From the NCBI RefSeq assembly GCF_017654485.1, contig NZ_CP061091.1, forward strand, positions 1,253,501 to 1,317,500: a DNA stretch of 64,000 bases. Direction: 5' to 3'. A model generated the notes under the pieces. The model was not told the origin of the DNA, ran no database searches, and saw only the letters and a program-made list of their open reading frames with translations. Shown one piece after another: positions 11,171 to 24,705 of the stretch. A program made the position numbers and the translations under genes. Origin of the DNA: Roseomonas marmotae (GTDB lineage Bacteria > Pseudomonadota > Alphaproteobacteria > Acetobacterales > Acetobacteraceae). Position 1 is the stretch's first letter. The number at the start of each line of letters is the position of its first letter.

Positions 11171-12072
11171 GCGGCGCGGCTGCGGCGGGGGCGGAGGAAG
11201 CCGCGCCCGCCAAGGTGAATCTGCACCTGCATGTCACGGGGCGGCGGGCGGATGGCTATCACCTGCTCGATTCCCTGGTGGTCTTCGCGGGGGCCGGCGA
11301 CAGGCTGCGGCTGGAGCCGGCACCCGGCCTCTCCCTGGTGCTGGAAGGGCCGGAAGGCGCGGCCCTGGCCGCCGAACCCGACAACCTCGTGCTACGGTCC
11401 GCGAGGCTGCTGGCGGAGCATGCCGGCATCCGGCCCCATGGCCGGCTGCGGCTGGAGAAGAACCTGCCGGTGGCTTCCGGCATCGGCGGCGGCTCGGCCG
11501 ATGCGGCGGCGGCGCTGCGGCTGCTGGACCACGCCTGGGGGCTGCGGCTGGAACCGCCGGCCCTGGCGGCCCTGGCGGCCCGGCTGGGGGCGGATGTGCC
11601 GGTCTGCCTGGAGAACCGCCCGAGGCGGATGCAAGGGGTGGGAGAGGTGCTCTCCGACGCGCCGGCCCTGCCGGACTGCGGCATGGTGCTGGCCAATCCG
11701 CGCCTGGCCCTGCCGACCCCCGCCGTCTTCCGCGCGCGCCGGGGCGACGGCACGCCGCCGGCCACTCTGCCAGCAGGCTGGGCCGATGCCAGAGCCATGG
11801 CGCGCGATCTCCTGGCCTGCCGCAACGACCTTGAGGAAGCGGCCATCGGCCTCTGCCCGGCGGTGGCGGAAGTGCTGACGGCTCTGCGGGCACTGCCGGG
11901 GTGCCTGCTGGCGCGGATGAGCGGCTCCGGCGCCACCTGCTTCGGCCTTTTTCCCTCAGCGTCCCAGGCCGCCCATGCCGCGGAGTTGCTGCCGAAGGCG
12001 TGGTGGCGGTGGGGAGGGGGGCTTTACGACCCAGGCCGGGCCGCTTATTCAGCGCAGGCCGGTGGGGCGTAG
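11167..12072 (+). CDS. ispE: 4-diphosphocytidyl-2-C-methyl-D-erythritol kinase
   Basis: 301 residues starting at TTG 11167, inside the TTGA that also ends the TPR gene. The N-terminal motif APAKVNLHLHVTGRRADGYH is diagnostic. The GHMP-kinase ATP loop is PVASGIGGGSADAAAALRLL. GADVPVCLENR with RMQGVGE carries the substrate and catalytic region. The enzyme phosphorylates CDP-methylerythritol in the MEP pathway, which feeds the isoprenoid units used by the carotenoid cluster near 53-61 kb. The last four codons (GGT GGG GCG TAG) lie within the 5' part of the downstream tRNA gene. Confidence 0.95.
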   Translation: MSGAAAAGAEEAAPAKVNLHLHVTGRRADGYHLLDSLVVFAGAGDRLRLEPAPGLSLVLEGPEGAALAAEPDNLVLRSARLLAEHAGIRPHGRLRLEKNLPVASGIGGGSADAAAALRLLDHAWGLRLEPPALAALAARLGADVPVCLENRPRRMQGVGEVLSDAPALPDCGMVLANPRLALPTPAVFRARRGDGTPPATLPAGWADARAMARDLLACRNDLEEAAIGLCPAVAEVLTALRALPGCLLARMSGSGATCFGLFPSASQAAHAAELLPKAWWRWGGGLYDPGRAAYSAQAGGA

Positions 12073-12137
12073 CCAAGCGGTAAGGCAGCGGTTTTTGGTA
12101 CCGCCATTCCCAGGTTCGAATCCTGGCGCCCCAACCA
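12063..12137 (+). tRNA. tRNA-Gln (anticodon UUG), CCA encoded
   Basis: The acceptor stem TGGGGCG (12063-12069) pairs perfectly with CGCCCCA (12127-12133). The anticodon loop is tttttggta with anticodon TTG, and the T arm contains caggttcgaatcctg. The discriminator A and genomic CCA end at 12137. The first ten bases overlap the end of ispE: bases 8-10 of the tRNA are the ispE stop codon TAG. Confidence 0.96.
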
Positions 12138-12163: not shown

Positions 12164-13198
12164 TCAGCCCTGCAATTCGTGCCGCACGATGGCAGCCCCT
12201 TCCGCCATGGCGCGCAGCTTGCCGAAGGCACGGGGTCGGGGCAGGTATTTCATGCCGCAATCCGGTGCGACCACCAGCCGCTCCGCTGGCAGGTGCCGCA
12301 GCCCTGCGCGGATGCGTTCCGCCACCACCTCCGGCGCCTCCACCTCCGGGCTGCCGAGGTCGATGACCCCCAGCATGATCTTCTTGCCAGGCAGGCCGTC
12401 GAGCACCGCAAGGTCGAGCCGCGGCTGCGCCGCCTCGATGGAAATGGTGCCGGCGGTGCAATCGGCCAGTTGCGACAGGAAGGAATAGCCGGAGGGCTTG
12501 TCCTTCACGACGGCCGCATAGCCGAAGCAGACATGCACCACCGTCTCGCCCGCAAGCCCCTCCAGCGCGCGGTTCAGCGCCTTCACGCCGAAGCGCGCCG
12601 CACCTTCCGGCCGCGCCTGCATCCAGGGTTCGTCGAACTGGATGACACCGACACCGGCGGCCAGAAGGTCCTTCGCTTCCTCGTTGACGGCGGCGGCATA
12701 GTCCATCGCCATGGCTTCCTCGTCCCGGTAGTACTCGTCCGAGGCCTGTTGCGAGAGCGTGAAGGGGCCGGGCAGGGTGATCTTGGTCCTGCGCTCGGTA
12801 TTGGCGACGAGGAATTCCACATCCCGCACCTCTACCGGCCGGTTGCGGCGGATCCTGCCCACCACGCGCGGCACCAGCGTCTCCTTGCCGGCGCGGCCCA
12901 TGGTGCGGGCGGGGTTGTCCACGTCCACGCCATCCAGCGCCAGGGCGAAGCGGTTGGAATAGCTCTCCCGCCGGATCTCGCCATCGGTGATGATGTCGAG
13001 CCCCGCGCGCTCCATGTCGCGGATGGCGATCAGCGTGGCATCATCCTGCGCCTGCTCCAGCGCATCCTCGGCCACGCGCCACATCTGCTTCATCCGCACG
13101 CGCGGCACCAGGTTCTGCGCCAGCACATTGCGGTCCACCAGCCAGTCCGGCTGCGGGTAGCTGCCGACGACGGTGGTGGGCAAAAGCGTGTTGGTCAT
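12164..13198 (-). CDS. short MetE-like (cobalamin-independent methionine synthase family) protein
   Basis: 344 residues, the length of the C-terminal barrel of MetE alone. The start TTVVGSYPQP is family-typical, and the zinc site appears intact: His222 and Cys224 (VHVCFG), Glu255 (SIEAAQPR) and Cys314 (PDCGMKYL). Such short proteins are often annotated as methyltetrahydropteroyl-homocysteine methyltransferases. Relatives include epoxyalkane:coenzyme M transferase, so thiol alkylation of another substrate is also possible. It is the last gene of the 12-gene minus-strand run, 3 nt after a SnoaL-like gene, which favours a role in the catabolic pathway over housekeeping methionine synthesis. The specific reaction is not assigned. 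Confidence 0.85.
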   Translation of the reverse strand: MTNTLLPTTVVGSYPQPDWLVDRNVLAQNLVPRVRMKQMWRVAEDALEQAQDDATLIAIRDMERAGLDIITDGEIRRESYSNRFALALDGVDVDNPARTMGRAGKETLVPRVVGRIRRNRPVEVRDVEFLVANTERRTKITLPGPFTLSQQASDEYYRDEEAMAMDYAAAVNEEAKDLLAAGVGVIQFDEPWMQARPEGAARFGVKALNRALEGLAGETVVHVCFGYAAVVKDKPSGYSFLSQLADCTAGTISIEAAQPRLDLAVLDGLPGKKIMLGVIDLGSPEVEAPEVVAERIRAGLRHLPAERLVVAPDCGMKYLPRPRAFGKLRAMAEGAAIVRHELQG

Positions 13199-13201
13199 GT
13201 G

Positions 13202-13570
13202 TCAGGCCTTCATGGCGGTGGGCTGGTAGGCGAGGAGGCGCCATTCGCCGCCCTCCCGCGCCCAGACGGCGAGGGTGAGGCTGGCGATGCGCTTCTCCGC
13301 GCCATCGCGGATGATGGTGGCGTTCATGCGGCCCAGCGCGGCGGCGGCATCCGGCCCGGCTTCCAGCACCATCTCCGTGCTGTAGCCCACTTCCAGATAG
13401 CGCAGGCTGCCGGTGGAAAGGCTGGCGAGGTATTCCGCCTTGCTGTCCCGCGTCGCGTCGGAATGGGCATAGACGGCGCGCTCGGAGAGCAGCGCGGCCA
13501 GGGCATCGACATCGCCGCGCAGCATGGCGTCATAGCGCCGTGCTTCCAGGGCGCGGATCTCATCCTGCAT
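13202..13570 (-). CDS. SnoaL / NTF2-like protein
   Basis: 122 residues with the alpha+beta cone pattern of small SnoaL/DUF4440-type proteins: an N-terminal helix (EIRALEARRYDAMLRGD), then AALLSERAVYAHSDATRDSKAEYL and a C-terminal strand pair ending in WRLLAYQPTAMKA. Members act as isomerases, hydrolases or pockets for small polar substrates. It sits between the beta-hydroxyacid dehydrogenase and the MetE-like gene with only a few nt on each side. The H..S.....D..SK..YL pattern suggests a nuclear-transport-factor-2-like ligand pocket. No substrate can be named. Confidence 0.8.
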   Translation of the reverse strand: MQDEIRALEARRYDAMLRGDVDALAALLSERAVYAHSDATRDSKAEYLASLSTGSLRYLEVGYSTEMVLEAGPDAAAALGRMNATIIRDGAEKRIASLTLAVWAREGGEWRLLAYQPTAMKA

Positions 13571-13577
13571 GGATACC

Positions 13578-14477
13578 TCAGCGGGGATTGGGCGCGAGCA
13601 ACCGCTCGGGCCAGGTGGCGAGACGAAAGAAATCCAGCTCGCCCTCGCCGCTGGCCTGATAGGCGGCGGCGAATTGCCGGGCGAGGGCGGAAAGCGGCAT
13701 CGGCGCGCCCTCCCGCAGCCCGACGGCCAGGGCGAGGTCCAGATCCTTGGCGATGAGGTCGAGATCGGCGGTGGGCGTCCAGTCCCGCGCCTTCAGCATC
13801 TCGGCCTTGTAGGCGAGCAGGGGAGAGGCCACGACGCTTTTGGACAGCGCCTCCACCATCGCCTCCCAGTCCAGGCCGAGGCGGCCACCGAAGGCCAGGG
13901 CCTCGCCAATGATGGCAGGGGTGAGGGCGACGACGAGGTTGACCATCAGCTTCACGGCGCGGGCTTCCTCGGCCGTGCCGCAACGCATCGTCTCCTTGCC
14001 CAGCACGCCGAGCAGCGGCGCGCAGCGGTCCAGTGCCGCCTCGGGGCCGGAGGCGAAGATGGTCAGCGCCCCCGATGCCGCCGTGCTGGTGCTGCCGGAG
14101 ACCGGGCAGCGCAGGTAATCCGCGCCCCGCGCCGCCATGGCCTCCGCTACTTGCGCGGAAGTGGCGGGGGAGACGGTGCTGAGGTCGATGAAGACCTGCC
14201 CCGGACGGATCTCCTCCACCAGCCCGCCGGGGCCGAGCGTCACCGCCAGCAGCGCCGCGTCATTCGGCACCATGGAGAGGATGATCTCCGTCTGCTCCGC
14301 CAGCCCCGCCGCCGTCATGGCGGCGTGCAACCCCTCATTCGCCAGCGCAGCGATACGGGTATGGTCGGGATCCGTGGCGGTGACCTCCGCCCCGGCCTCC
14401 AGCAACCGGCGGCAGAGCGGCGTGCCCATGCGGCCGACGCCAATCCAGCCCAGCTTCCAGCCATCCAGCGCGCCCAT
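13578..14477 (-). CDS. NAD(P)-dependent beta-hydroxyacid dehydrogenase (3-hydroxyisobutyrate dehydrogenase family)
   Basis: 299 residues from the ATG at 14477, chosen because AAGGAG lies 6 nt upstream. A GTG at 14492 overlapping the livF stop is the alternative. The Rossmann motif GWIGVGRMG is at the N-terminus, the substrate loop is CPVSGSTSTAASGALTIFA and the catalytic lysine is K176 in ARAVKLMVN. It would oxidise a short beta-hydroxyacid or reduce a semialdehyde in the cytoplasm. Its place in the operon, after a Liv transporter and ring-cleavage genes, suggests it handles a breakdown intermediate. Another family member lies at 37641-38522. Confidence 0.9.
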   Translation of the reverse strand: MGALDGWKLGWIGVGRMGTPLCRRLLEAGAEVTATDPDHTRIAALANEGLHAAMTAAGLAEQTEIILSMVPNDAALLAVTLGPGGLVEEIRPGQVFIDLSTVSPATSAQVAEAMAARGADYLRCPVSGSTSTAASGALTIFASGPEAALDRCAPLLGVLGKETMRCGTAEEARAVKLMVNLVVALTPAIIGEALAFGGRLGLDWEAMVEALSKSVVASPLLAYKAEMLKARDWTPTADLDLIAKDLDLALAVGLREGAPMPLSALARQFAAAYQASGEGELDFFRLATWPERLLAPNPR

Positions 14478-14483
14478 GTTAAG

Positions 14484-14489
14484 CTCCTT
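14484..14489 (-). promoter_or_regulatory. ribosome binding site deciding the dehydrogenase start
   Basis: AAGGAG on the minus strand, 6 nt before ATG 14477. It overlaps the end of livF and favours this ATG over the GTG at 14492. Confidence 0.6.
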
Positions 14490-15220
14490 CACAGGCCGAG
14501 ATAGAATTTGCGGACCAACTCACTGTCGCCCAGTGCCGCCGGGGAATCGCCCTGGAAGGCCACCTGCCCATGCACCAGCACATAGCCACGGTCGGCGATG
14601 CGGATGGCCTGGTGGAAATTCTGCTCGGCCATCAGCACCGTCAGGCCCAGCTTTTCCTTCATCTCGCCGATCTTCTCGATCGTGCGGGCCACCAGGATGG
14701 GCGCGAGGCCCACCGAAGGCTCATCCACCAGCAAAATCTTCGGCGCGCACATCACGGCGCGTCCCAGCGCCACCATCTGCTGCTCGCCGCCGCTCATGCT
14801 GCCCACGGGCTGGGAGCGGCGTTCCTTCAGGCGCGGGAAGGCGTCGTAGCAGAATTCGAGGTTGCGCCCCATCTCCACGCGCGCGGCGCGGCGATAGGCG
14901 CCGAGCAGCAGGTTCTCCTCCACCGAAAGGCGCGGAAACAGCCGCCGCCCTTCCGGCACCAGGGAAATGCCCAGATTGACGATCTCCTCGGGTGAACGAC
15001 CGACGAGGTCATGCTGTTGCCCGTCGATGGTGGCCAGGATGCGCCCGCGCGTCGGCCGCAGCAGGCCAAGGATGCAGCGCATCAGCGTGGTCTTGCCATT
15101 GCCGTTGGTGCCGAGCAGCGCCACCGTCTCCCCCGCCGCCACGGAAAGCGAGACGCCATCCAGCGCCCGCACGGCGCCATAGCCAGCGTCCAGGTCCTCG
15201 ATCAGCAGGCTAGCGGCCAA
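14489..15220 (-). CDS. branched-chain-amino-acid-type ABC transporter ATPase (LivF family)
   Basis: 243 residues from TTG 15220, which overlaps the livG stop by 11 nt. An upstream ATG at 15271 would give 260 residues but adds a tail not seen in the family. Walker A is GTNGNGKTT (37-45), the signature is SGGEQQMVALGRA and Walker B is KILLVDEPSVGL. The C-terminal H-loop region is AEQNFHQAIRIADRGYVL. With LivG it powers uptake through LivHM. The operon setting suggests that the cargo is an aromatic or small carboxylic acid, not necessarily an amino acid. Confidence 0.93.
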   Translation of the reverse strand: MAASLLIEDLDAGYGAVRALDGVSLSVAAGETVALLGTNGNGKTTLMRCILGLLRPTRGRILATIDGQQHDLVGRSPEEIVNLGISLVPEGRRLFPRLSVEENLLLGAYRRAARVEMGRNLEFCYDAFPRLKERRSQPVGSMSGGEQQMVALGRAVMCAPKILLVDEPSVGLAPILVARTIEKIGEMKEKLGLTVLMAEQNFHQAIRIADRGYVLVHGQVAFQGDSPAALGDSELVRKFYLGL

Positions 15221-15923
15221 GATAGGCCTCCTCCACTTCCGGCAATGCAAGCACGGTGCGCGGCTCTCCATCCGCCACCTTGCGCCCGGCCACCAGCACC
15301 GCGAGGCGCTGGGAGAATTGCGTGACGGCGCGCATCACATGCTCGATCATGATGATGGTGGTGCCGCCGGCATTCAGCCGGAAGAGCAGCGCCAGGATCT
15401 GGTCCACTTCGGAATCCGAAAGGCCGGCCATGGCTTCATCGGCAATCAGCAATTCCGGCCGCAGCGCCGTGGCGCGGGCCAGTTCCAGCCGCCGCAGTTC
15501 CACCTGTGTCAGCTCCTTCGGCATCCGGTGCGCCTTGCCGGCGAGTTCCACCGTTTCCAGGCATTCCATCGCCCGCGCCTCGGTGGCCGCGTCCCGCCCG
15601 GCATAGGCGAGGGGGACGCGGATATTCTCGATCACCGTCAGGCCCTTGAAGGGGCGTGGAAGCTGGAAGGTGCGGGCCAGCCCGCGCCGCGCGCGCTGAT
15701 GCGGCTTCAGCCGGCCGAGCTTCTCACCCTTGAAGGTGAAGGCGCCATCATGGCTGGCGAAGGCCCCGGCGAGGCAATTTGTAAAAGTGCTTTTGCCCGA
15801 GCCATTGGGGCCGATCAGCCCCAGCCTTTCCCCGGCGCGCACTTCCAGGTCGATGCCGGAAAGCGCGGTGAAGCCGCCGAACCGCTTGCCGACTCCCTCG
15901 GCCCTCAGGACGATCTCGCTCAT
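15210..15923 (-). CDS. branched-chain-amino-acid-type ABC transporter ATPase (LivG family)
   Basis: 237 residues. Walker A is GPNGSGKST (38-46) and Walker B is ELLIADEAMAGL, followed by the family-typical MIEHVMRAV switch region. The ABC signature is atypical, LTQVELRRLELARA in place of LSGGQ, a deviation seen in some LivG-like subgroups. Start and stop overlap livM (4 nt) and livF (11 nt). It forms the ATPase heterodimer with LivF on the inner side of the membrane. Confidence 0.93.
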   Translation of the reverse strand: MSEIVLRAEGVGKRFGGFTALSGIDLEVRAGERLGLIGPNGSGKSTFTNCLAGAFASHDGAFTFKGEKLGRLKPHQRARRGLARTFQLPRPFKGLTVIENIRVPLAYAGRDAATEARAMECLETVELAGKAHRMPKELTQVELRRLELARATALRPELLIADEAMAGLSDSEVDQILALLFRLNAGGTTIIMIEHVMRAVTQFSQRLAVLVAGRKVADGEPRTVLALPEVEEAYLGR

Positions 15924-16900
15924 CGCCGCCCCCGGAACAGCCCGATGATGCCGTGTGGTGCCGCGCAGACGAAGACTACCAGCACCACGCCCACGATCAT
16001 CAGGTTGGCGGCGGAGGAAATGGTCACCGTCGCCGCCTGTTGCAGCGAGGCCAACAGCACCGCGCCGATCAGCGGCCCCGCCCAGCTTGCCGTGCCACCG
16101 ATCAGTGGCATGGCGATGGCATTCACCGCATAGGCCAGCCCGAAGGCCGAGTTCGGCTCCACATAGGAACCGAGATAGGGCAGGGGAGCACCGGCCACCG
16201 CCATCATGGCGCCGCTGATCGTCGTCGCGATCAGCTTCAGCCGCAGCGTCGGCACGCCCGAGGCTTCCGCCGCCGCTTCATCGTCGCGCAGCGCGGCGAG
16301 GCCGAGGCCAAGGCGGGATTTCTCGATGGTGCGGGCAATGGCCACGGCAGCCGCCGCCAGCACCACCACCACGGCGCAGAGAAAGCCGCTGTAGCTGTCG
16401 AAACCGAAAGGCACCTCGCGCGGGCGCAGCACATAGGCGCCGCGCGAGCCGCCGACATAGCTCCAGTTCACCACGATGGTTTGCAGCACTACGGAAAGGC
16501 AAAGCGTGGCGATGGCGAAATAGGCGCCGCGCAGCCGCAGCGTCAGGATGCCGGTGCCGAGGCCCAGTGCCCCGCCCACCACCGCCGCGAAGCCGATGCA
16601 GGGCAGCAGCCCCAGGCCCAGCGCCTTGCCGATGGCCACCGTGGTATAGGCCCCGGTGGCGAAGAAGGCGGCGGCGCCGAAATTCACATAGCCCGCGTAG
16701 CCGCCGAGGATATTCCAGGCGGTGGCCAGCACCACGTATTGCAGCACGAAGGTGGCGGCGAAATAGGCGTATTCGCTGCCGAAGCCGCGCAGCGCCAGGA
16801 TCAGCGCCAGTGCCGCCACGGCGGAAGCCAGCCAGAAGCCGGCATGGCCCAGCCGGCGCGGCGCCGGCAGCGGCAGGGCGGGCAGGGCGGTGCCGCTCAT
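15920..16900 (-). CDS. branched-chain-amino-acid-type ABC transporter permease (LivM family)
   Basis: 326 residues with about nine hydrophobic segments. The LivM signature region reads AWNILGGYAGYVNFGAAAFFATGAY, followed by LRLRGAYFAIATLCLS and the EAA-like loop SRLGLGLAALRDDEAAAEASG that contacts the ATPases. It overlaps livH upstream and livG downstream by 4 nt each. It pairs with LivH to form the membrane channel for the binding protein encoded at 17778-19043. Confidence 0.94.
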   Translation of the reverse strand: MSGTALPALPLPAPRRLGHAGFWLASAVAALALILALRGFGSEYAYFAATFVLQYVVLATAWNILGGYAGYVNFGAAAFFATGAYTTVAIGKALGLGLLPCIGFAAVVGGALGLGTGILTLRLRGAYFAIATLCLSVVLQTIVVNWSYVGGSRGAYVLRPREVPFGFDSYSGFLCAVVVVLAAAAVAIARTIEKSRLGLGLAALRDDEAAAEASGVPTLRLKLIATTISGAMMAVAGAPLPYLGSYVEPNSAFGLAYAVNAIAMPLIGGTASWAGPLIGAVLLASLQQAATVTISSAANLMIVGVVLVVFVCAAPHGIIGLFRGRR

Positions 16901-17778
16901 GCCGCCCGCCCGAAGAGGCCCTGGGGCCGGATGGCCAGCACCAGCAGCAGGCAGCCGAAGGCCACGGCCGGCGACCAGGATGGGCCGTAGAAGGTGGCGG
17001 TGACATTCTCCACCACGCCGAAGGCCAGCGCCGCCAGCACGCAGCCGCCCAGCGAGGCCAGCCCGCCCATGATGACGATGGCGAAGACGCGGCCGATGAA
17101 GATATGCCCGGACCAGGCATCCACCGGCTGCACCACCACCAGCGCGCCACCCGCCAGCGCCGCCATGGCGACGGAGATGCCGAAGGCAAGGCGCTTGATC
17201 CGCACGGGATCGATGGCCAGCAGCCGCAGCGCCTCCCGGTCCTGCGCCACGGCGGCGATGGCGCGGCCGGTGAAGGAGCGGCGCAGGAACAACGCCAGCG
17301 CCCCGATGGCCGCCAGCGCGACCGCCGCCGGCACCAGCATCCGCAGCGGCAGGTCGATCTCGCCGATGCGCCAGGTCGTGTTGGCATAGGCGGCATCGGC
17401 GAAGTGCTGTTCCGGCCCCAGCGTCATCACCAGCCCGACCTCGATGATGAACATGATGCCGAAGAAGAAGGCGAGGCCCTGGATGGCCTCATCCCCGCGC
17501 CGCTCGAAGAAATGGTGGTAGGCGACGTAGATCAGCGCCCCCAGCGCCCAGAAGGCTGGCGCCAGCAGCAGCGAGAGCAGCAGCGGGTCCAGCCCCGTCA
17601 TGCCCCAGAGCAGGGCGACCAGCAGCGCGCCCAGCACCATAAAGGCGGGGTGGGCGATATTGACCACGTCCAGCATTCCGAAGGAGACGGAAAGCCCCGC
17701 CGCCGCCGCGGCATAAAGCCCGCCCAGCAGCAGGCCCGAGACCACCCCGTTCAGGAGAAGGGCGAGGTCCGGGTCCAT
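16897..17778 (-). CDS. branched-chain-amino-acid-type ABC transporter permease (LivH family)
   Basis: 293 residues with eight or so membrane segments. Typical LivH features are GLLLGGLYAAAAAGLSVSFGMLDVVNIAHPAFMVLGA near the start and the coupling loop FTGRAIAAVAQDREALRLLAIDPVRIKRLAFGIS. The ATG overlaps the stop codon of the upstream binding-protein gene by one base (TGATG), so translation is coupled. It forms the transmembrane pair with LivM. Confidence 0.94.
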   Translation of the reverse strand: MDPDLALLLNGVVSGLLLGGLYAAAAAGLSVSFGMLDVVNIAHPAFMVLGALLVALLWGMTGLDPLLLSLLLAPAFWALGALIYVAYHHFFERRGDEAIQGLAFFFGIMFIIEVGLVMTLGPEQHFADAAYANTTWRIGEIDLPLRMLVPAAVALAAIGALALFLRRSFTGRAIAAVAQDREALRLLAIDPVRIKRLAFGISVAMAALAGGALVVVQPVDAWSGHIFIGRVFAIVIMGGLASLGGCVLAALAFGVVENVTATFYGPSWSPAVAFGCLLLVLAIRPQGLFGRAA

Positions 17779-19043
17779 CAGGCACCGGCCGTATAGGGCT
17801 TGCGCAACTCGCCGGACTTGTAGCGCTGCGGATAGAGGATCACCTGCGTGCCCGGCTTGCGGAACTGCTCGATGTCATTGCCCTGCACGCCCTGGTACTG
17901 GGTGTAGAGGTTCCGCTCCTCCGTCCATTCGCCCATGGCATCGAAGCGCAGCGGGCCGATGACGGTGTCGAACTGGTTCTTGTGCATATCCGCCGCCAGC
18001 GCCGCCTGATCCAGGCTGCCGACGCGCTTCACTGCCTGTTCCAGCACCTGCATCTGCGTATAAGCCAGCGGCGGCACGTAATGGCCGAGCGCGTCGGCAT
18101 TCTCCTTGGCCGCCAGCGGCTGGTAGCGTTCGATCAGCGCCTGGGTGCCGGGGAATTGCAGCGTGGGCTCCGGCGCATAGACATCCCAGACCACCAGGTT
18201 GTTCAGGATGGGGCCGAGCTGCAGCTTCTGCGCAGTGATATGCGGCCCGATCATCGGTCCGCCGAAAAGCTGGAAATTCACCCGCAGCTCGCTGGCCGCG
18301 CGCAGCAGCCCGGCGGTATCCGGCGGGTAGGAGCCGATATAGACAATATCCGGCCGCGCCGCCTGCACCGAGCGCAGGATGGGCGTGAAATCCACCGTGC
18401 TGGGCGGATAGGCACGGTCATAGACCACACGCAGCTTGTGCTGCCCGGCGAGGTAACGCGCGCTTTCGGCGGTGCGCTGGTGGAAGTCGCTGTCCAGGTT
18501 CACCAGCGCGATGCTGCGCGGCTTCGGGTCCATCGCCATGGCGATGTCGAAGAAGCCCTTGGCGAATGTCTCCTTCACGTCGGAGCCGGCGGGGTTGATG
18601 GAGAAATACCGGTCGTACTTGAAGTCAGAATTCACCCCCGTGCCGAAGAGCGACACGAAGGTCATGTTCCGCTGCATCACCACCGGCATGGCGGGCGCGA
18701 TGATGGCCGTGGCATAGCCGGAGACGACGAGATCGACCTTATCGACATCGATCAGCTTGGTGTAGATGCCCGGCACCTGCGCGCCGGTGCTCTGGTCGTC
18801 GTAATGTACCAGTTCCACCGGGCGGCCGAGCAGCCCGCCCTTGGCGTTCACATCCTCCGCCCAGATGCGGTGCGCCAGCAGCGCCGGGCGGCCATTGCCC
18901 GCCAGCCCGCCCGAGAGCGACATGGAATAGCCGATGCGGATCGGTGGCCCGGAGGGTGCTGTCTGCGCCCGCGCCGTGGCCGGTACCGTGGCGGCAGCCG
19001 CCAGGGCAAGCCGGCCGAGATCCCGCCTGCTGAAGTCTTTCAT
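17778..19043 (-). CDS. periplasmic amino-acid/aromatic-acid binding protein of Liv-type ABC transporter
   Basis: 421 residues from ATG 19043; the open frame upstream belongs to other genes. The N-terminus MKDFSRRDLGRLALAAAATVPATARAQ has a twin-arginine motif and AxA cleavage site, suggesting Tat export. The mature protein begins PIRIGYSMSLSGGLAGNGRPA, as in type I periplasmic binding proteins, and continues with GGLLGRPVELVHYDDQS. It captures the substrate for LivHMGF, whose genes follow without gaps. Neighbouring ring-cleavage and FAH-family genes point to an aromatic or cyclic carboxylate as ligand, an inference only. Confidence 0.92.
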   Translation of the reverse strand: MKDFSRRDLGRLALAAAATVPATARAQTAPSGPPIRIGYSMSLSGGLAGNGRPALLAHRIWAEDVNAKGGLLGRPVELVHYDDQSTGAQVPGIYTKLIDVDKVDLVVSGYATAIIAPAMPVVMQRNMTFVSLFGTGVNSDFKYDRYFSINPAGSDVKETFAKGFFDIAMAMDPKPRSIALVNLDSDFHQRTAESARYLAGQHKLRVVYDRAYPPSTVDFTPILRSVQAARPDIVYIGSYPPDTAGLLRAASELRVNFQLFGGPMIGPHITAQKLQLGPILNNLVVWDVYAPEPTLQFPGTQALIERYQPLAAKENADALGHYVPPLAYTQMQVLEQAVKRVGSLDQAALAADMHKNQFDTVIGPLRFDAMGEWTEERNLYTQYQGVQGNDIEQFRKPGTQVILYPQRYKSGELRKPYTAGA

Positions 19044-19105
19044 GGAACCTCCTCCTGCGGCCCGGTTTCTGTTGCCCGTGGCTCGCCATGACGTTCGGGT
19101 GGCGG

Positions 19106-20011
19106 CTACTCCGCCGCGACTTTCGAGGGATCGGCGCCCACGCGGCCGGAGGTGTCGCCCTCGGCCTGGCGCGCGATGCGGAAGTCGTAATGCACGCTCG
19201 GCATGTCGGGCGCGGGCGAGCCTTCGAGGCCCTTCTGCGGCCGTACGACAAGGGATTCCGAAACGCCGAAGACGGTGTCGGAATCGATATGCGGGTCGTC
19301 GCCGAGATAGAGCGCCGTCACCAGTTCCCGGTATCCCTCGGCGCCGATCAGCATATGGATATGCGCGGGGCGGAAGCCGTGGCGGTTCTGCTGCCGCACC
19401 AGCTCGCCCACCGGCCCATCCATCGGGATGGAATAGCCCAGCGGGATCAGCGTGCGGATGGCGTAGCGGCCCTCGGCATCGGTGCGGAACTGGCCACGCA
19501 TGTCCATGACGCCGGGGTCGTTGGTCTGCAGGTCGTAGGCGCCATCGGCATCGGTCTGCCAGACTTCGACGATGGCATTGGGCACGCCCTCGCCGGCCTC
19601 GTTCAGCACCTGGCCAAACAGCATCATCTCCGGCCCCGTGGCATGGGCGGCGATGCTCCCGCCATAGCCATACTGTGGCGAGGCCTCGCGGTAGAAGGGG
19701 CCGAGCAGGCTGGTCTCGGTGGCTTCGCCCACGCGGTTGGCCTGGTCGTCCAGCAGGTTCACGAGGCGCGAGAGACCGAGCGTATCGGAGAGCAGGATGA
19801 ATTCCTGCCGGATCGGCGTGCAGGTCTGGCCGGTGCGGGTGAGGAAGCCGATGGCGGCCAGCCATTCGGCGGGCGTCAGCTTCACCTCCCGCGCGAAGTC
19901 ATGCAGGTGCCGGACAAGGCTTTCCATCACCTCCCGCAGACGCGGGTCAGTGGTGGAGGCCATCTGCGCGATCACGGCATCCGTGACGGTATTCTGGTCC
20001 AGGTCAGCCAT
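19106..20011 (-). CDS. intradiol ring-cleavage dioxygenase, hydroxyquinol 1,2-dioxygenase-like
   Basis: 301 residues from ATG 20011. The N-terminal helical dimerisation domain (about 20-90) is the one found in catechol and hydroxyquinol dioxygenases. The beta-sandwich carries the Fe(III) ligands: one Tyr in GPFYREASP, one Tyr in PLGYSIP, and His217 and His219 in RPAHIHMLI. The stretch DGPVGEL, RPAHIH and DSDTVFGV resembles hydroxyquinol enzymes more than catechol 1,2-dioxygenases. It would open the ring of a dihydroxy or trihydroxybenzene to a muconate-type acid. The gene lies between a Bug receptor and the Liv transporter. The exact substrate is uncertain. Confidence 0.9.
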   Translation of the reverse strand: MADLDQNTVTDAVIAQMASTTDPRLREVMESLVRHLHDFAREVKLTPAEWLAAIGFLTRTGQTCTPIRQEFILLSDTLGLSRLVNLLDDQANRVGEATETSLLGPFYREASPQYGYGGSIAAHATGPEMMLFGQVLNEAGEGVPNAIVEVWQTDADGAYDLQTNDPGVMDMRGQFRTDAEGRYAIRTLIPLGYSIPMDGPVGELVRQQNRHGFRPAHIHMLIGAEGYRELVTALYLGDDPHIDSDTVFGVSESLVVRPQKGLEGSPAPDMPSVHYDFRIARQAEGDTSGRVGADPSKVAAE

Positions 20012-20091
20012 TTCTTGTGTCCTCCATCGGGGGCGGCATCTCGCGGGCCTGCCCTCGGTCGTCGCACGTCGTGGCGGGCGCGGCGGCGCCC

Positions 20092-21066
20092 CTAGTCCGG
20101 TCGTATCCTGGCAGCAACGATCACCGGCTGCCACTTCGCAATCTCTTCCCGCGTCATGGCGGCGAGCTGCTCGGGCGAGCCGCCCGTCGGCTCCACCCCC
20201 TGCGCGCGCAGGTTCGCCAGGGCGGCGGGGTCGGCCAGCAGGGCATTGGTGGCGCGGTTCAGCCGGGCCACGATGGCGGGCGGCAGGCCCGCCGGGCCGA
20301 AGAGCGACCAGAGCCCCTCGACGACGAAATCCTGCACCCCCGCTTCCTGGATGGTCGGCACATCCGGCAGGATGCCGACGCGCTTGCCGGAGGTCACGGC
20401 CAGGGCCTTCAGCTTGCCGCTGTCCAGATGCGGCTTGAGGCCCAGCGGGTGGTAGAACATGGCATCCACCCGTCCCGCCAGCAGGTCGGTCACCGCCTGG
20501 CTGGCACTGCGGTAGGGCACGTGCTGCGTCTCCAGCCCCGCCCGCAGGTTCAGCAGCGCCTGGGAGAGATGTCCCGTGGTGCCATTCCCCGCCGAGGCGA
20601 AGGAGAGCGGCCGCGACTTCGCCAGCGCCACCAGCTCCATCACCGAATTGGCGGGGAGGGAGACCGGCACGCCCAGCACCGTCGGCGTGGTGACGAAGGG
20701 GGCGATGGGAGTGAAATCCTTCACCGCATCGAAGCCCAGCTCGGGAAACAGGCTGGAATTGATGCCATGCGTCCCGTTGGTGCCCAGCAGCAGCGTATAG
20801 CCATCGCCCGCTGCCTGGGCCACGCTCTGGGCGCCGACATTGCCGCCGGCGCCGGCACGGTTCTCCACCACCACCGGCTGTCCCGCTTCCTTCCCCAGGG
20901 CATCGGCCAGGATGCGGCCCAGCGCATCGGTGGTGGTGCCGGCGGCGAAGGGTACTACGAGACGGATGGGCCGCTCCGGCCATGCCGCCTGGGCGAAGCT
21001 CCGGCGGGCCAGCAGCGGCGTGGCGGCAAGGGTGCCCAGCAGGGCTCGACGTGTGGCTCGGGTCAT
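20092..21066 (-). CDS. Bug/TctC family periplasmic solute receptor
   Basis: 324 residues. The signal region TRATRRALLGTLAATPLLARRSFAQA has a twin-arginine-like start and an AQA cleavage site. Typical family blocks follow: WPERPIRLVVPFAAGTTTD, VVVENRAGAGGNVG, HVPYRSASQAVTDLLAGRVD and LPDVPTIQEAG. These two-lobed proteins bind small carboxylates or aromatics for tripartite tricarboxylate transporters or for signalling. No TctA or TctB gene is present in the window. The gene overlaps the upstream deacetylase-like gene by 4 nt and precedes the dioxygenase by 80 nt. Confidence 0.93.
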   Translation of the reverse strand: MTRATRRALLGTLAATPLLARRSFAQAAWPERPIRLVVPFAAGTTTDALGRILADALGKEAGQPVVVENRAGAGGNVGAQSVAQAAGDGYTLLLGTNGTHGINSSLFPELGFDAVKDFTPIAPFVTTPTVLGVPVSLPANSVMELVALAKSRPLSFASAGNGTTGHLSQALLNLRAGLETQHVPYRSASQAVTDLLAGRVDAMFYHPLGLKPHLDSGKLKALAVTSGKRVGILPDVPTIQEAGVQDFVVEGLWSLFGPAGLPPAIVARLNRATNALLADPAALANLRAQGVEPTGGSPEQLAAMTREEIAKWQPVIVAARIRPD

Positions 21067-21725
21067 GCGGCAGCCCCCCTGTGAGGCGTGACGTAATCCG
21101 CGACCCGCCCGGATGGCTGGCCACGGCGCAGCGGCACGCAGGCCGCCGGGAAATCCTGGGTGAAGCGGGCGCCCCGGTCGGCCAGGGTGCCAAGGAAGCG
21201 GTCCAGGTGCCGCATGGCGCCATTCGGCAGGTCATGCAGCACCAGAGTCACGGGCTCCGGCCCCTGGCAGAGATCCAGGGCGCGGTCCACCCAACCCTCC
21301 GGGTCGCGGAAATCGCCCGGCACGGCATTCCAGAGGACGCAGGTGAAATGCCCGCGCACCAGCAGATCCAGCGCCGCGTGGCTCAGCAGGTGGCGGCCCA
21401 GCGCACCGCCGCCGCCCTGGGGGCGGAACAGCCTGTCGGGGTGCGAGAGCGCACCGATCTCCTCCTGGGTGCGGGCGATCTCCGTCTCGGCCACCGCATC
21501 CGATGCATGGCCCAGCGGGCCCGCATGGCTCCAGGTGTGGTTGCCGATCCAGTGGCCCTCGGCATGGGCCCGCTCGGCCAGGGCGCGATGCGCCGCCAGC
21601 TTGTGGCCCAGCACGAAGAAGGTGGCCCGCAGGCCGCGTGCGCGCAGCGCCTCCAGCACGCCCGGCGTCACCTCCGGCTCAGGGCCGTTGTCGAAGGACA
21701 GGGTGACGCGGGGCGCGGTGGTCAT
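21063..21725 (-). CDS. polysaccharide-deacetylase-fold (NodB/CE4-like) protein
   Basis: 220 residues from ATG 21725; the open frame upstream overlaps the FAH-family gene. The NodB homology begins VTLSFDNGPEPEVTPGVLEAL, where the usual Asp-Asp of motif 1 is Asp-Asn. Motif 2 is HWIGNHTWSH with both zinc histidines, and motif 3 is FRPQGGGGALG. It has no signal peptide and sits inside a catabolic operon. It may therefore be a cytoplasmic C-N hydrolase of the PuuE or cyclic-imide type, not a cell-wall enzyme. Substrate unknown. Confidence 0.87.
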   Translation of the reverse strand: MTTAPRVTLSFDNGPEPEVTPGVLEALRARGLRATFFVLGHKLAAHRALAERAHAEGHWIGNHTWSHAGPLGHASDAVAETEIARTQEEIGALSHPDRLFRPQGGGGALGRHLLSHAALDLLVRGHFTCVLWNAVPGDFRDPEGWVDRALDLCQGPEPVTLVLHDLPNGAMRHLDRFLGTLADRGARFTQDFPAACVPLRRGQPSGRVADYVTPHRGAAA

Positions 21726-21762
21726 GACACGCCGTGGCTTTCCGGCGCGCGGCGCATCGGCT

Positions 21763-22626
21763 TCAGGCCTCGTCCCGCACGGGGTTGGAGAGGATGCCGA
21801 TGTCCTCGATCTCGATCTCGACGGTATCGCCATCCTTCATGAAGACCGGCGGCTTGCGGGCATAGCCGACGCCGCTGGGCGTGCCGGTGGCGATCACATC
21901 GCCCGGTTCCAGCGTCATCACCTCCGAGAGGATCGCCAGGATACGCGGCACAGTGAAGATCATGTCGGAGGTATGGCTGTCCTGCATCACCTCGCCATTG
22001 AGGCGGGAGGTGATGCGCAGCGCATTCGGGCCCTGCGGCAGTTCGTCGGGCGTGACGATCTCGGGGCCGAGGCCGCCGGTGCGGTCGAAGTTCTTGCCCA
22101 TGGTCCACTGCGCCGACTTGCGCTGGTAGTCGCGGACCGAGCCCTCGTTCATGCAGGTGTAGCCGGCGACGCAGCCCAGGGCCTCGGCCTCCGTCAGGTG
22201 CCGTGCCCGCTTGCCGATGACGATGGCCAATTCGGCCTCGTAGTCGAACTTGTCGGAGACCTTCGGGCGCAGCAGCGGCTCGCCGGGCGCGGCCAGCGAG
22301 GTGGGGCCGCGGAAGAAGACCGCCGGGTAATCCGGGATGGGATTGCCGCCTTCCTTGGCATGCAGCGCGTAGTTCAGGCCGATGCAGATGACCTTGCCCG
22401 GGCGCGGCACCGCCGGCAGCAGCGTCAGGCCCTTCAGCGGGCGGCGCGGCGCGTCGGCGAGCTTCGCCGCCAGGGCGCGCGCGCCCTCCGGCAGGTTCAG
22501 GGCGGCCAGGGCCTCGGTGGGGTCCTGCGGCAGGCCCGGCACCACATCGGCCAGGGCCACGACATCATCGCCCAGGCGGGCACCAAGGGCCGCCCGGCCC
22601 TCATGCTGGAACGCGATCAGGCGCAC
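21763..22626 (-). CDS. fumarylacetoacetate hydrolase family protein
   Basis: 287 residues from GTG 22626, chosen because AGGAGG stands 9 nt upstream; there is no such site for upstream starts. The N-terminal beta domain is MRLIAFQHEGRAALGARLGDD. The FAH core starts KVICIGLNYALHAKE and holds metal ligands in SDKFDYEAELAIVIGK, followed by ITSRLNGEVMQD and PGDVIATGTPSGVGYARKP. Family members hydrolyse or isomerise C-C bonds of ring-cleavage products, or decarboxylate oxaloacetate. It is the first gene of the 12-gene run, divergent from a GntR regulator, and probably acts on the ring-cleavage product. Confidence 0.92.
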   Translation of the reverse strand: MRLIAFQHEGRAALGARLGDDVVALADVVPGLPQDPTEALAALNLPEGARALAAKLADAPRRPLKGLTLLPAVPRPGKVICIGLNYALHAKEGGNPIPDYPAVFFRGPTSLAAPGEPLLRPKVSDKFDYEAELAIVIGKRARHLTEAEALGCVAGYTCMNEGSVRDYQRKSAQWTMGKNFDRTGGLGPEIVTPDELPQGPNALRITSRLNGEVMQDSHTSDMIFTVPRILAILSEVMTLEPGDVIATGTPSGVGYARKPPVFMKDGDTVEIEIEDIGILSNPVRDEA

Positions 22627-22641: not shown

Positions 22642-22694
22642 TTGATTCTCGGTTCGAGGTTTTATCGAAATTCCTGGGTCGTCAAGAAAGATTT

Positions 22695-22741: not shown

Positions 22742-23437
22742 ATGTCTCAGGCAGACCCCATCGCGGAAGCGCGCGACCTGACTCTTGCGACCGTCGTCCA
22801 CCGGCGGCTGCGCGAGGACATCCTGTCCGGCCGCCTGCCACCAGGGCAGAAGTTGAAGCTGCGCGACCTGGCCGAGAGCTATGGGGCCGGCGCCTCACCG
22901 ATGCGGGAGGCCCTGTCCAAGCTGGCGGCCGAGGGGCTGGCGGAACGGCTGGAGCATCGGGGCTTCCGTGTGGCGGCAGCGGCGCCAGGGCAGCTGGACG
23001 GGCTGATCCGCAGCCGGGTGCTGGCAGAATGCGCGGCGCTGCGCGAATCCATCCGGCACGGCGATGCCGCCTGGGAAGAGGCGCTGGTCCTGGCCGAGCA
23101 CCGGCTGAAGCGGGCGGCCCGGTCTCTCGACCCGCACCGCTTCGTCGCCAATCCGGAATGGGAAGCCTGCCATCTGCGCTTCCACCAGGCGCTGCTGGCG
23201 GCCTGCGGCGCGCCGCCCCTGCTGGCCTTCTGCGACCGGCTGCGGGAGGAGGCGCAGCGCTACCGCGCGCTGTCCAATACCCTGGCCTATCCGGGCCGCG
23301 ACGTGGCGGCCGAACATGCCGCCATCGCTCGCGCCACGCTGGACCGCGACGCGGAAAAGGCCGCCGCCCTGCTGACGCAGCATTACGAGCGGACAGGCGC
23401 CTTTATCGGCGCCGATCTGGGCAGCGAGGCCGGGTGA
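22742..23437 (+). CDS. GntR family transcriptional regulator, FCD-type
   Basis: 231 residues. The winged helix-turn-helix spans about 15-80, with VVHRRLREDILSGRLPPGQKLKLRDLAESYGAGASPMREALSKLAAEGL showing the standard GntR layout. The C-terminal FCD ligand domain holds possible metal ligands in RFHQALLAAC and AEHAAIARATLDRD. It is divergent from the 12-gene catabolic operon and is its obvious candidate local regulator. Most FCD regulators repress until a pathway acid binds; the effector here is unknown. Confidence 0.92.
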   Translation: MSQADPIAEARDLTLATVVHRRLREDILSGRLPPGQKLKLRDLAESYGAGASPMREALSKLAAEGLAERLEHRGFRVAAAAPGQLDGLIRSRVLAECAALRESIRHGDAAWEEALVLAEHRLKRAARSLDPHRFVANPEWEACHLRFHQALLAACGAPPLLAFCDRLREEAQRYRALSNTLAYPGRDVAAEHAAIARATLDRDAEKAAALLTQHYERTGAFIGADLGSEAG

Positions 23438-23542: not shown

Positions 23543-24415
23543 CTACGGCCCGCCGGCCTGCATGAAGCGCTTGCGCCATTCCTCATAGGCCGACTGACGC
23601 GTGACGCGGCCGATCAAGGCGCCCGAGGCCTGCCCCGGCACAGCCCTGGCCGGGCTGCCCGCGCGCATGGCGCTGAGGGCGTCGTGCACGGCCTGCACGG
23701 CGGCCATAATCGGCGCATGGCCGGGCAGCATGACGCGCACCCGCGACGCCGCCAGATCTCCCGCATCCGCCAGTTCCGGGCCGACACCACCGAGGATCAA
23801 TGGCAACCGCGTCCCGGCGGCCACGGCCTCAAGCTCGGCGCGTGTCCGCAGGCCCACCACCATCAGGGCATCCGCCCCCGCCGCCTCATAGGCGCGGAGC
23901 CGGGTGATCGCATCCTCCAGCGAAGACAGCAGCGGCGCGCTGGTGCGGCCAACGATCACCAGGCCTTCGTCGCGCCGGGCCGAGAGCGCGGCGCCGATCT
24001 TGCCAACGCCTTCCTCCAGGGACACCAGCCCGCTCTTGCCCGCATCTGCGCCAAAGGGGAGGGGAAGCAGCGTGTCCTCGATCGTCAGGCCGGCCACGCC
24101 CGCACTCTCCAGGCCCTGCACGGTATGGATGACGTTCAGCGCGTTTCCGAAACCGTGGTCCGCATCCAGCAGGATCGGCAGACCGGCCGCGTGGCAGATG
24201 CGCCGGGCCTGATCCGTCACCTCCGTCGCTGTCACCAGGATCATGTCGGGCGCCGCGAGCAGGGCGAGCGCGAGGCTGGAACCGCCGACGAGCCCCAGTT
24301 CAAAGCCGAGATCCTCGGCGATGCGGACCGAGATCGGGTCGAAGACCGAGGCCGGCACCACGCAGTCCTGCCCCTGGAGCACCCGGCGCAGAGCCTGCCG
24401 CTGTGGTTGAAACAT
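23543..24415 (-). CDS. isocitrate lyase/PEP mutase superfamily enzyme, oxaloacetate decarboxylase-like
   Basis: 290 residues from ATG 24415, which has ggaaggaagg just upstream. The barrel begins RRVLQGQDCVVPASVFDPIS, and the Mg-binding and catalytic stretch is LLDADHGFGNALNVI followed by LTIEDT. This is the pattern of the PA4872-type oxaloacetate decarboxylases within the PEP-mutase/isocitrate lyase superfamily. The isocitrate-lyase catalytic motif KKCGH is absent. It probably cleaves a C-C bond in a small 2-oxo- or hydroxy-acid. The gene diverges from a deacetylase-like gene across 290 bp. Confidence 0.88.
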   Translation of the reverse strand: MFQPQRQALRRVLQGQDCVVPASVFDPISVRIAEDLGFELGLVGGSSLALALLAAPDMILVTATEVTDQARRICHAAGLPILLDADHGFGNALNVIHTVQGLESAGVAGLTIEDTLLPLPFGADAGKSGLVSLEEGVGKIGAALSARRDEGLVIVGRTSAPLLSSLEDAITRLRAYEAAGADALMVVGLRTRAELEAVAAGTRLPLILGGVGPELADAGDLAASRVRVMLPGHAPIMAAVQAVHDALSAMRAGSPARAVPGQASGALIGRVTRQSAYEEWRKRFMQAGGP

Positions 24416-24705
24416 CCTTCCTTCCTCCCCTGGATCGGTTCCTGGCTGGCCTTTGTGCCTCTGCGCGGGAGGCCTGAAAACCTGTTGACGGAAGATCAGC
24501 ATTAATCATTAATAATCTCAAGCCCGGCACGAAAGCCGGGCGGGACGCGACGCTAGGAACCGCCGCGCCAGGAGGAGACGATTCATGCCCCGGAGCGTGC
24601 AAGCCCCCTGGCGTGGCTTCCTCCCGGCCACGCCGTCCCGTCCTGAGACGATGCTGCTGCCGACGCGCCTTTTCGCCCGTCCATGACAGAAAGGATTTGA
24701 CCGGA
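24416..24705. promoter_or_regulatory. divergent intergenic region with AT-rich repeat and hairpin
   Basis: About 290 bp lie between divergent starts. It contains an AT-rich block with two copies of the self-complementary hexamer ATTAAT separated by one base (24501-24513). A 7-bp hairpin follows (gcccggc, acgaaa, gccgggc; 24522-24541). The AT-rich block stands out in this very G+C-rich sequence and probably marks promoter and operator elements. I see no convincing gene in the interval. Confidence 0.5.

Follow-up and report, generated by a model that had tools for sequence, protein, structure and literature searches.

A twelve-gene run in Roseomonas marmotae as a predicted ring-cleavage operon that joins a hydroxyquinol-type dioxygenase with a MesD-like methyltransferase

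We have analysed a 64,000-nucleotide stretch of the Roseomonas marmotae genome (contig NZ_CP061091.1, positions 1,253,501–1,317,500, referred to here as the window; the genome consists of 4.83 Mb in 10 contigs), in which twelve minus-strand genes fill positions 12164–22626, with a FAH-family gene first (5') and a MetE-like gene last (3'). An earlier note on this DNA had described a catabolic operon here, and the positions and families it gave for the twelve genes were confirmed, using Pfam for nine of the proteins and sequence plus orthologs for LivG, LivH and LivM. From 5' to 3' the run encodes a FAH-superfamily hydrolase/decarboxylase (21763–22626; GTG start; PF01557, 245 bits), a polysaccharide deacetylase-like, CE4-fold amide/ester hydrolase (PDA; 21063–21725; PF01522) with an [ST]FDNGP variant motif, a Bug/TctC-type periplasmic solute receptor (20092–21066; PF03401, 228 bits), a hydroxyquinol-type intradiol dioxygenase of 301 amino acids (19106–20011; PF04444 and PF00775), a LivK-type ABC solute-binding protein (17778–19043; PF13458, Peripla_BP_6, 182 bits), LivH- and LivM-type permeases (16897–17778 and 15920–16900), LivG- and LivF-type ATPases (15210–15923 and 14489–15220, the latter matching PF00005), a beta-hydroxyacid dehydrogenase of the HIBADH/tartronate semialdehyde reductase superfamily (13578–14477, or 14492; PF03446 and PF14833), a DUF4440/SnoaL-like protein (13202–13570; PF14534, 72.7 bits), and a MesD-like zinc/homocysteine methyltransferase having the MetE catalytic domain alone (12164–13198; PF01717). 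The LivG, LivH and LivM assignments agree with the annotation of plasmid orthologs (a branched-chain amino acid ABC permease in the case of LivH). The junctions measure 37, -4, 80, 62, -1, -4, -4, -11, 11, 7 and 3 nt from FAH to MetE-like, and the tight spacing claimed earlier is borne out, since at eight of the eleven the genes overlap or are at most 11 nt apart, the other three gaps being 37–80 nt.

The ABC transporter is a complete HAAT-type set, with the binding protein, two permeases and two ATPases together in the run, whereas only the Bug receptor represents the Tct transporters, with TctA and TctB not among the twelve genes. By eye, the LivK leader looks twin-arginine-like, and the LivF start was chosen as a TTG preceded by a GGAGGAGG box, which has the gene overlap livG by 11 nt; the best NCBIfam match of this protein was to the LivF profile (217 bits, under the cut-off of 441), and the dehydrogenase had no NCBIfam equivalog above its cut-off. 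A tRNA-Gln gene on the plus strand (12063–12137) converges on the run and lies 26 bases past its 3' end. At the other end a divergent gene for a GntR/FCD-family regulator (22742–23437, plus strand; PF00392 and PF07729) is separated from the FAH gene by a divergent promoter of 115 bp. Scans for sigma-70 sites (none, with 1.1 expected) and terminator-like sites (five, with 3.9 expected) were uninformative either way.

Amongst solved sequences, the dioxygenase (129 bits to PF00775 and 105 bits to PF04444) scored highest with an intradiol dioxygenase that carries no substrate name (258 bits) and with PnpC (251 bits), followed by two hydroxyquinol and one 6-chlorohydroxyquinol dioxygenases (209–226 bits), compared with 125 bits for the best catechol dioxygenase. 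Tyr, Tyr and an HIH sequence align with the hydroxyquinol dioxygenases (we take the Tyr, Tyr, His and His to be the iron ligands), and these nearest solved sequences and aligned key residues uphold the proposal that the protein is, by sequence, of the hydroxyquinol type. Its best-matching homologs with names come from Roseomonas and its kin, and there was no match in the PHROGs scan. PnpC, GraB and TcpC/HadC, which presumably serve p-nitrophenol, resorcinol and chlorophenol pathways, respectively, share its family, iron ligands and several stretches of the pocket. In contrast to hydroxyquinol pathways, no maleylacetate reductase gene is present in the operon, and we know of no hydroxyquinol 1,2-dioxygenase pathway which has a FAH enzyme, a CE4 hydrolase or a MetE-like protein as a component. 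A genome search for iron-containing alcohol dehydrogenases (PF00465, E <= 0.001) identified three places, two of which encode proteins of the alcohol dehydrogenase type, scoring 243 and 231 bits with methanol dehydrogenase against 92 and 86 bits with maleylacetate reductase, and the third, as judged by sequence, a dehydroquinate-synthase fusion. Maleylacetate reductase was not found in the genome, a negative which covers sequence scores of this dehydrogenase family and leaves other families possible; since none was found despite the hydroxyquinol-type dioxygenase, the genome does not match the textbook route for hydroxyquinol.

The nearest solved protein to the MetE-like protein was 3rpd, a MesD (2e-56, 194.8 bits), and both share a single MetE-type catalytic domain and a set of conserved His, Cys, Glu and Cys residues which we take to be the zinc ligands. 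The Ser, Glu, Asp and Tyr holding homocysteine in MesD are all kept in the alignment to 3rpd (chain index = residue number + 3), and are given as Ser22, Glu73, Asp188 and Tyr226 in the available portion of PMC7857596, which leaves the methyl source of MesD and the role of its oxygen-dependent partner open. The protein differs from MesD in its ring-cleavage operon setting, in having no MesX encoded among the twelve genes, and in its score with NCBIfam PRK09121 (262 bits, below the cut-off of 392), which we assume to stand for MesD. MesX (PF08908) had no match in the genome, but the search was also silent in every control genome. We note that this is the sole PF01717 match in the genome, that the PHROGs scan returned one match to a family of unknown function, and that a MetH match containing one in-frame TGA is found elsewhere. 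As the homocysteine residues are conserved and MetH is separate, the gene need not be a housekeeping methionine synthase, and we dropped that assignment given the MetH match and the embedding of the gene in operons of relatives too. MetE-like homologs with 60–62% identity also occur in three loci that we guess to be sphingomonad-like (L182, L183 and L185), where they adjoin a second MetE-catalytic-domain protein (Pfam for L182 only) and, by sequence, a VOC-like protein and a CaiB-like CoA transferase, a context which hints that MetE-like proteins work in catabolism.

The PDA carries the NodB fold of CE4, members of which commonly cleave amides, and has the [ST]FDNGP motif in common with 100 of 102 relatives (the remaining two having TIDNGP or being truncated; some strains were counted twice). 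The TFDD motif of CE4 is lacking, as the second, metal-binding Asp is replaced by Asn in nearly all of these relatives, and the His-x3-His metal motif (NH...H) is retained in all 102. Compared with CE4 carbohydrate esterases and polysaccharide deacetylases, it is thus set apart by the Asn variant, by the absence of a secretion signal visible by eye, and by its catabolic neighbours. The subfamily is rare, being found in seven of 398 genomes sampled from the phylum at E <= 1e-30 (one being the source of the window) and in 48 of 249 Acetobacteraceae genomes, and plasmid records from Roseomonas, Pseudoroseomonas, Variovorax and Paraburkholderia label it only as 'polysaccharide deacetylase family protein'. 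A second, distinct polysaccharide deacetylase gene (24697–25557, plus strand; PF01522, 61.6 bits) lies about 2 kb past the GntR-side end of the run.

In the FAH protein the H89–E92 dyad and E130/E132 are invariant across five aligned relatives, all five of which have the Glu-x-Glu plus Asp/Glu site and the His-Glu dyad, presumably the metal site and the catalytic dyad, with Glu at the third ligand position in the window protein and in locus L084 and Asp in the other three. These metal ligands and the dyad are common to the FAH superfamily, including HpcE, FAHD1 and 2,4-diketo-3-deoxyrhamnonate hydrolase. The protein scored under every NCBIfam cut-off listed, so the family does not fix its exact substrate.

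We looked for the same gene order in other genomes, and it recurs. In 249 Acetobacteraceae genomes the dioxygenase had a match at E <= 1e-40 in 109 genomes and at >=55% identity in 59 (60 places), of which 40 places were fetched with their flanks, and the best 80 of 144 PDA relatives from the genome scan were fetched as well (L087–L166; these overlap partly with other loci, e.g. L095 and L034, and are not independent). Genes were called by a simple codon-usage script, with the window calls inspected by eye; the dioxygenase (L041, L044), PDA (L048, L084) and SnoaL (L038) genes which it missed or mis-started were recovered by tblastn or from the open reading frame list. The six closest loci (L034–L039) keep the divergent GntR gene and the run, with all twelve genes in five of them (the SnoaL-like gene of L038 being found by tblastn only), the sixth, L039, having neither the dehydrogenase nor the SnoaL-like gene. 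All twelve genes plus GntR occur within 10.5 kb of the PDA in 12 of the 80 PDA loci by tblastn (some strains being the same as in L034–L039), or in 13 when the dehydrogenase and SnoaL are not required, and the same order is present on two annotated plasmids, pL11-D of P. cervicalis and p546-1 of R. haemaphysalidis. This recurrence shows that the grouping is more than chance.

Elsewhere in the family the neighbours are reshuffled, as MetE-like/PDA/dioxygenase/LivKHMGF/dehydrogenase (L047), MetE-like/Bug/dioxygenase (L048, L070, L071), GntR/FAH/PDA/dioxygenase (L053), dioxygenase/LivKHMGF (L042, L045, L050, L051) or a dioxygenase/MetE-like pair (L043, L055, L061). Across the 40 dioxygenase loci, tblastn found LivK in 17, MetE-like in 16, PDA in 11, FAH in 9, GntR in 9, the dehydrogenase in 6 and SnoaL in 5; it should be noted that these 40 are an enriched set, because the MetE-like gene is near the dioxygenase in 16 of them compared with two of the other 20 places (one being the window). 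Counted over whole genomes, the dioxygenase is found in 59, the MetE-like protein in 65 and both in 43 (Fisher 5.6e-19, relatedness ignored), with 18 of the 43 having them within 12 kb, and the PDA occurs with the dioxygenase in 30 genomes (12 within 12 kb) and with the MetE-like protein in 30 (13 within 12 kb), where random co-location would be expected at about 0.5% per genome. More distant dioxygenases (41–42% identity) also lie beside PDA and MetE-like genes in genomes G019 and G110. The unit is not universal in its own genus, as the dioxygenase is present in four of six sampled genomes; G239 has only the PDA, and in G016 no dioxygenase, PDA or MetE-like protein was found at the cut-offs used.

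The suggestion in the earlier note that the run is one catabolic unit is supported for the core of dioxygenase, PDA, MetE-like, FAH and GntR genes, which are neighbours in many genomes; the dehydrogenase and SnoaL-like protein are dispensable, both being absent in L039. The genes of this core are not each conserved separately amongst unrelated neighbours, which the note had named as evidence to the contrary, though FAH–PDA, dioxygenase–Liv and MetE-like genes do also occur as separable modules. Bradyrhizobium loci L118, L130, L132 and L152 have the order GntR, ABC transporter, PDA, FAH and MetE-like, the transporter including a binding protein of the NMT1 type (by Pfam in L118 only), and L136 is likewise with one gene unassigned; PDA–FAH–MetE-like is found in four Bradyrhizobium-like genomes as well, with the GntR and ABC genes in three (L081–L083) and not in L086. 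Three of these four genomes (G464, G447 and G534) have a dioxygenase of 57–59% identity with LivKHMGF at a place apart from PDA–FAH–MetE-like, followed in two of the three by an acetoacetate-decarboxylase-like gene (PF06314 for L191), whilst the dioxygenase relatives of the fourth, G580, reach only 44%. Other arrangements are GntR–PDA–cupin–FAH–FMN reductase–Bug–SnoaL-fold (PF13577) in L084, which is outside the class, and GntR–PDA–FAH–cupin in Caballeronia glathei (L160), while GntR and FAH occur with PDA and no dioxygenase or MetE-like gene within 10.5 kb by tblastn in L089, L092 and L103, and similarly in the short contig of L093.

The PDA is also seen in two quite different settings. Loci L142, L146, L147, L154 and L161 have a Rhizobium-type cluster of Bug, thiolase-like, DUF35-like, FAH, CaiB-like, TctB, TctA and PDA genes, four of the five adding an Iso_dh-family dehydrogenase (Pfam for L146 only, the others mostly by sequence). 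In L119, L124, L134, L138, L150 and L158 the PDA is divergent from pcaBDC-like genes, as judged by sequence, and CoxG- and molybdenum-hydroxylase-like genes come after it, except that the L150 stretch stops at the PDA.

The GntR/FCD regulator is a predicted local regulator belonging to the unit, and its divergent gene adjoins FAH in L034–L039 and in the Roseomonas-type loci that keep the operon. A candidate operator of 14 bases, TTTTATCGAAATTC, lies between the two genes (22660–22673, plus strand) and at the same position in orthologous intergenic regions. We aligned 19 rows by hand, the window plus 18 of 31 such regions, and found a TTT[AG]TCGAAA core in 12; the other seven, which go with more distant GntR proteins, have just a central [TC]CGA and its A/T-rich surroundings in common. 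That the window matches exactly follows from the way the pattern was made, namely from the window and its relatives; at <=2 mismatches 0.10 matches would be expected per window. There are no other exact copies of the site in the genome, and at <=2 mismatches there are 24 matches compared with nine for a reversed control pattern. We dropped the notion of a regulon beyond the operon, as the only copy with one mismatch sits among phage genes; 22 further copies have two mismatches. By eye, locus L224 of the same genome (contig C4, 145–163 kb) is a prophage-like run with terminase, portal and baseplate-like genes.

Taking these results together, we tentatively favour a GntR/FCD-controlled operon for breaking down a small ring compound that is probably acidic. 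The substrate would be captured by LivKHMGF and the Bug receptor, judging from their families, and the dioxygenase would split a ring of the 1,2,4-trihydroxybenzene type between two hydroxylated carbons. As no maleylacetate reductase was found, the ring-fission product would follow a hydrolytic route, in which removal of an ester, lactone or amide may fall to the CE4 enzyme, and hydrolysis or decarboxylation of the resulting keto acid to the FAH enzyme. The MesD-like zinc enzyme would pass a methyl group of the substrate to homocysteine to give methionine, the most plausible donor being a methoxy group which ring opening would turn into a vinylogous ester (on chemical grounds, such an ester gives up methyl more readily than does an aryl ether), with the dehydrogenase and SnoaL-like protein probably accessory. 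That all of the genes act on one compound is something we infer. Our best single guess at the substrate is a lignin-type hydroquinone or hydroxyquinol bearing a methoxy group; opening of 6-methoxyhydroxyquinol, for example, would produce the enol methyl ether of 2,4-dioxoadipate, demethylation would leave 2,4-dioxoadipate, an acylpyruvate of the type which FAH enzymes hydrolyse, FAH would then release pyruvate and malonate, and the PDA would attack a lactone or ester form. The dioxygenase, MesD-like protein, FAH and PDA would all be explained together by a methoxylated hydroxyquinol.

In seven of the 40 dioxygenase loci a flavin monooxygenase gene, whose product would generate a trihydroxy ring by hydroxylation, adjoins the dioxygenase or lies one gene away, and the MetE-like gene occurs in none of these seven stretches compared with 16 of the other 33 (p 0.019, or p 0.07 when the frequency of 18/60 for the full set of places is used, relatedness being ignored in both). 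The seven were hand-picked (clusters 19, 25 and one further gene, with one member of each Pfam-scanned), and two of their stretches are shorter than 10 kb. The exclusion is a weak sign, as if demethylation replaced hydroxylation. A similar order of events has been described for MhdA and OmeA of Aspergillus niger, where, in the portion of PMC8336404 available, a methoxylated ring is cleaved first to give a methyl ester that is removed later by an esterase. There, MhdA is an annotated homogentisate dioxygenase, a reductase acts in between, and methyl removal is thought to be by a carboxylesterase and not by a CE4 or MetE-like enzyme (PMC8336404, same portion).

A more specific proposal, that the MesD-like protein is a partner-free demethylase which methylates homocysteine directly with a methyl group of a ring-fission product that is methoxylated or N-methylated while the CE4-fold enzyme acts as a cytoplasmic lactone/amide hydrolase, would dispense with corrinoid, folate, Rieske and P450 chemistry and let ring degradation feed methionine synthesis, and we consider it unlikely. 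To our knowledge, there is no precedent for an ether passing its methyl group directly to a zinc thiolate with neither corrinoid nor folate nor a partner. Several further points weigh against the favoured route or parts of it: MesD requires MesX and oxygen (PMC7857596, in the portion available); genome G580 has GntR–ABC–PDA–FAH–MetE-like and a best dioxygenase of only 44% identity; by tblastn, 37 of the 80 PDA loci have no dioxygenase, FAH or MetE-like gene within 10.5 kb, so the PDA alone must have a wider use; the reductase search has the limit given above; and some neighbours of the dioxygenase in relatives point equally to a nitrogen ring.

These last are a PF04199 cyclase cluster after the dioxygenase in six of the 40 loci (PF04199 in the L054 member), an amidase–PDA–dioxygenase series in L040, and, in three loci, a neighbour resembling 2,6-dihydroxypyridine hydroxylase. 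A nitrogen heterocycle is the main rival, a serious though less likely candidate for the substrate: the dioxygenase would open a hydroxylated pyridine, for instance 2,3,6-trihydroxypyridine or a relative methylated at N or O, the resulting carbamate or amide would lose CO2, and the PDA would act as an ammonia-releasing amidase. The hydroxylase-like neighbours are three related flavin monooxygenases upstream of the dioxygenase, one gene away in L042 and L045 or two in L050, and the best solved relative of the L050 protein is 2,6-dihydroxypyridine hydroxylase (2vou, 2.6e-46), which is weak evidence because the monooxygenase family has few members in the PDB. In Pseudorhodoplanes-type loci the PDA also lies by CoxG- and molybdenum-hydroxylase-like genes, as judged by sequence; we dropped as nitrogen-ring evidence the molybdenum-hydroxylase-like genes by GntR in several Roseomonas-type loci (clusters 12, 21 and 22), which are aldehyde-oxidoreductase-like. 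Against this reading, the twelve genes include none of these nitrogen-ring genes, the dioxygenase agrees in its residues with hydroxyquinol enzymes, and FAH would be without a clear role. The earlier note had allowed for an N- or O-substituted aromatic or a heterocycle, and both are compatible with the genomic evidence.

It seems improbable that the run is a merger of modules (dioxygenase–Liv, GntR–FAH–PDA and MetE-like) for several substrates of similar origin with no single linear pathway. The three Bradyrhizobium-type genomes with dioxygenase–LivKHMGF and PDA–FAH–MetE-like at two places would fit this, as would the GntR/FAH/PDA loci without a nearby dioxygenase or MetE-like gene (L089, L092, L103 and also L093) and the 37 PDA loci mentioned above, but the genes are joined in differing orders across genomes and one candidate operator heads the whole run. 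We equally doubt an ordinary hydroxyquinol pathway, in which maleylacetate would be converted to 3-oxoadipate by an unlinked reductase or the beta-hydroxyacid dehydrogenase and the other genes would serve side substrates: the dioxygenase type agrees with it and two tandem PF00775 genes on contig C4, probably protocatechuate 3,4-dioxygenase at a guess, mean that 3-oxoadipate metabolism may exist, but the genome search revealed no PF00465 dehydrogenase closely similar to maleylacetate reductase, the beta-hydroxyacid dehydrogenase accompanies only six of the 40 dioxygenases, and MetE-like, PDA and FAH are left unexplained.

Other genes in the window include a PEP mutase/isocitrate lyase-like gene (23543–24382, minus strand) which adjoins the GntR gene and was dropped as a member of the unit because it is not beside GntR in the relatives shown. 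A fusion of AP_endonuc_2 and HPPD-like domains (30055–31914, minus strand) adjoins an FGGY carbohydrate kinase gene (28399–29877, minus strand) and resembles, we presume, QuiC-type dehydroshikimate dehydratase, and a CDC48-type AAA ATPase bearing a CDC48_N domain (38570–40843, minus strand) is found here in a bacterium.

Taken singly, the genes belong to known families, and together they make up a ring-cleavage catabolic operon and not a new class, though the set of twelve genes matches no pathway known to us; what is surprising is that an intradiol dioxygenase should be linked with a MesD-like methyltransferase. Our searches of open-licence PMC papers brought up no description of this operon, judging by titles and the opening lines of abstracts, nor of this link. 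The genetic association of a MesD-like protein with an oxygen-dependent ring-cleaving enzyme gives experiments a way to ask whether such enzymes can take methyl groups from small metabolites. If the demethylation reading were true, it would represent a cofactor-light means of removing methyl groups from lignin-type aromatics, the demethylation of which is called a frequent bottleneck in the available portion of PMC6021390, and it would provide a function for a CE4 subfamily that has so far been labelled just as polysaccharide deacetylase family.

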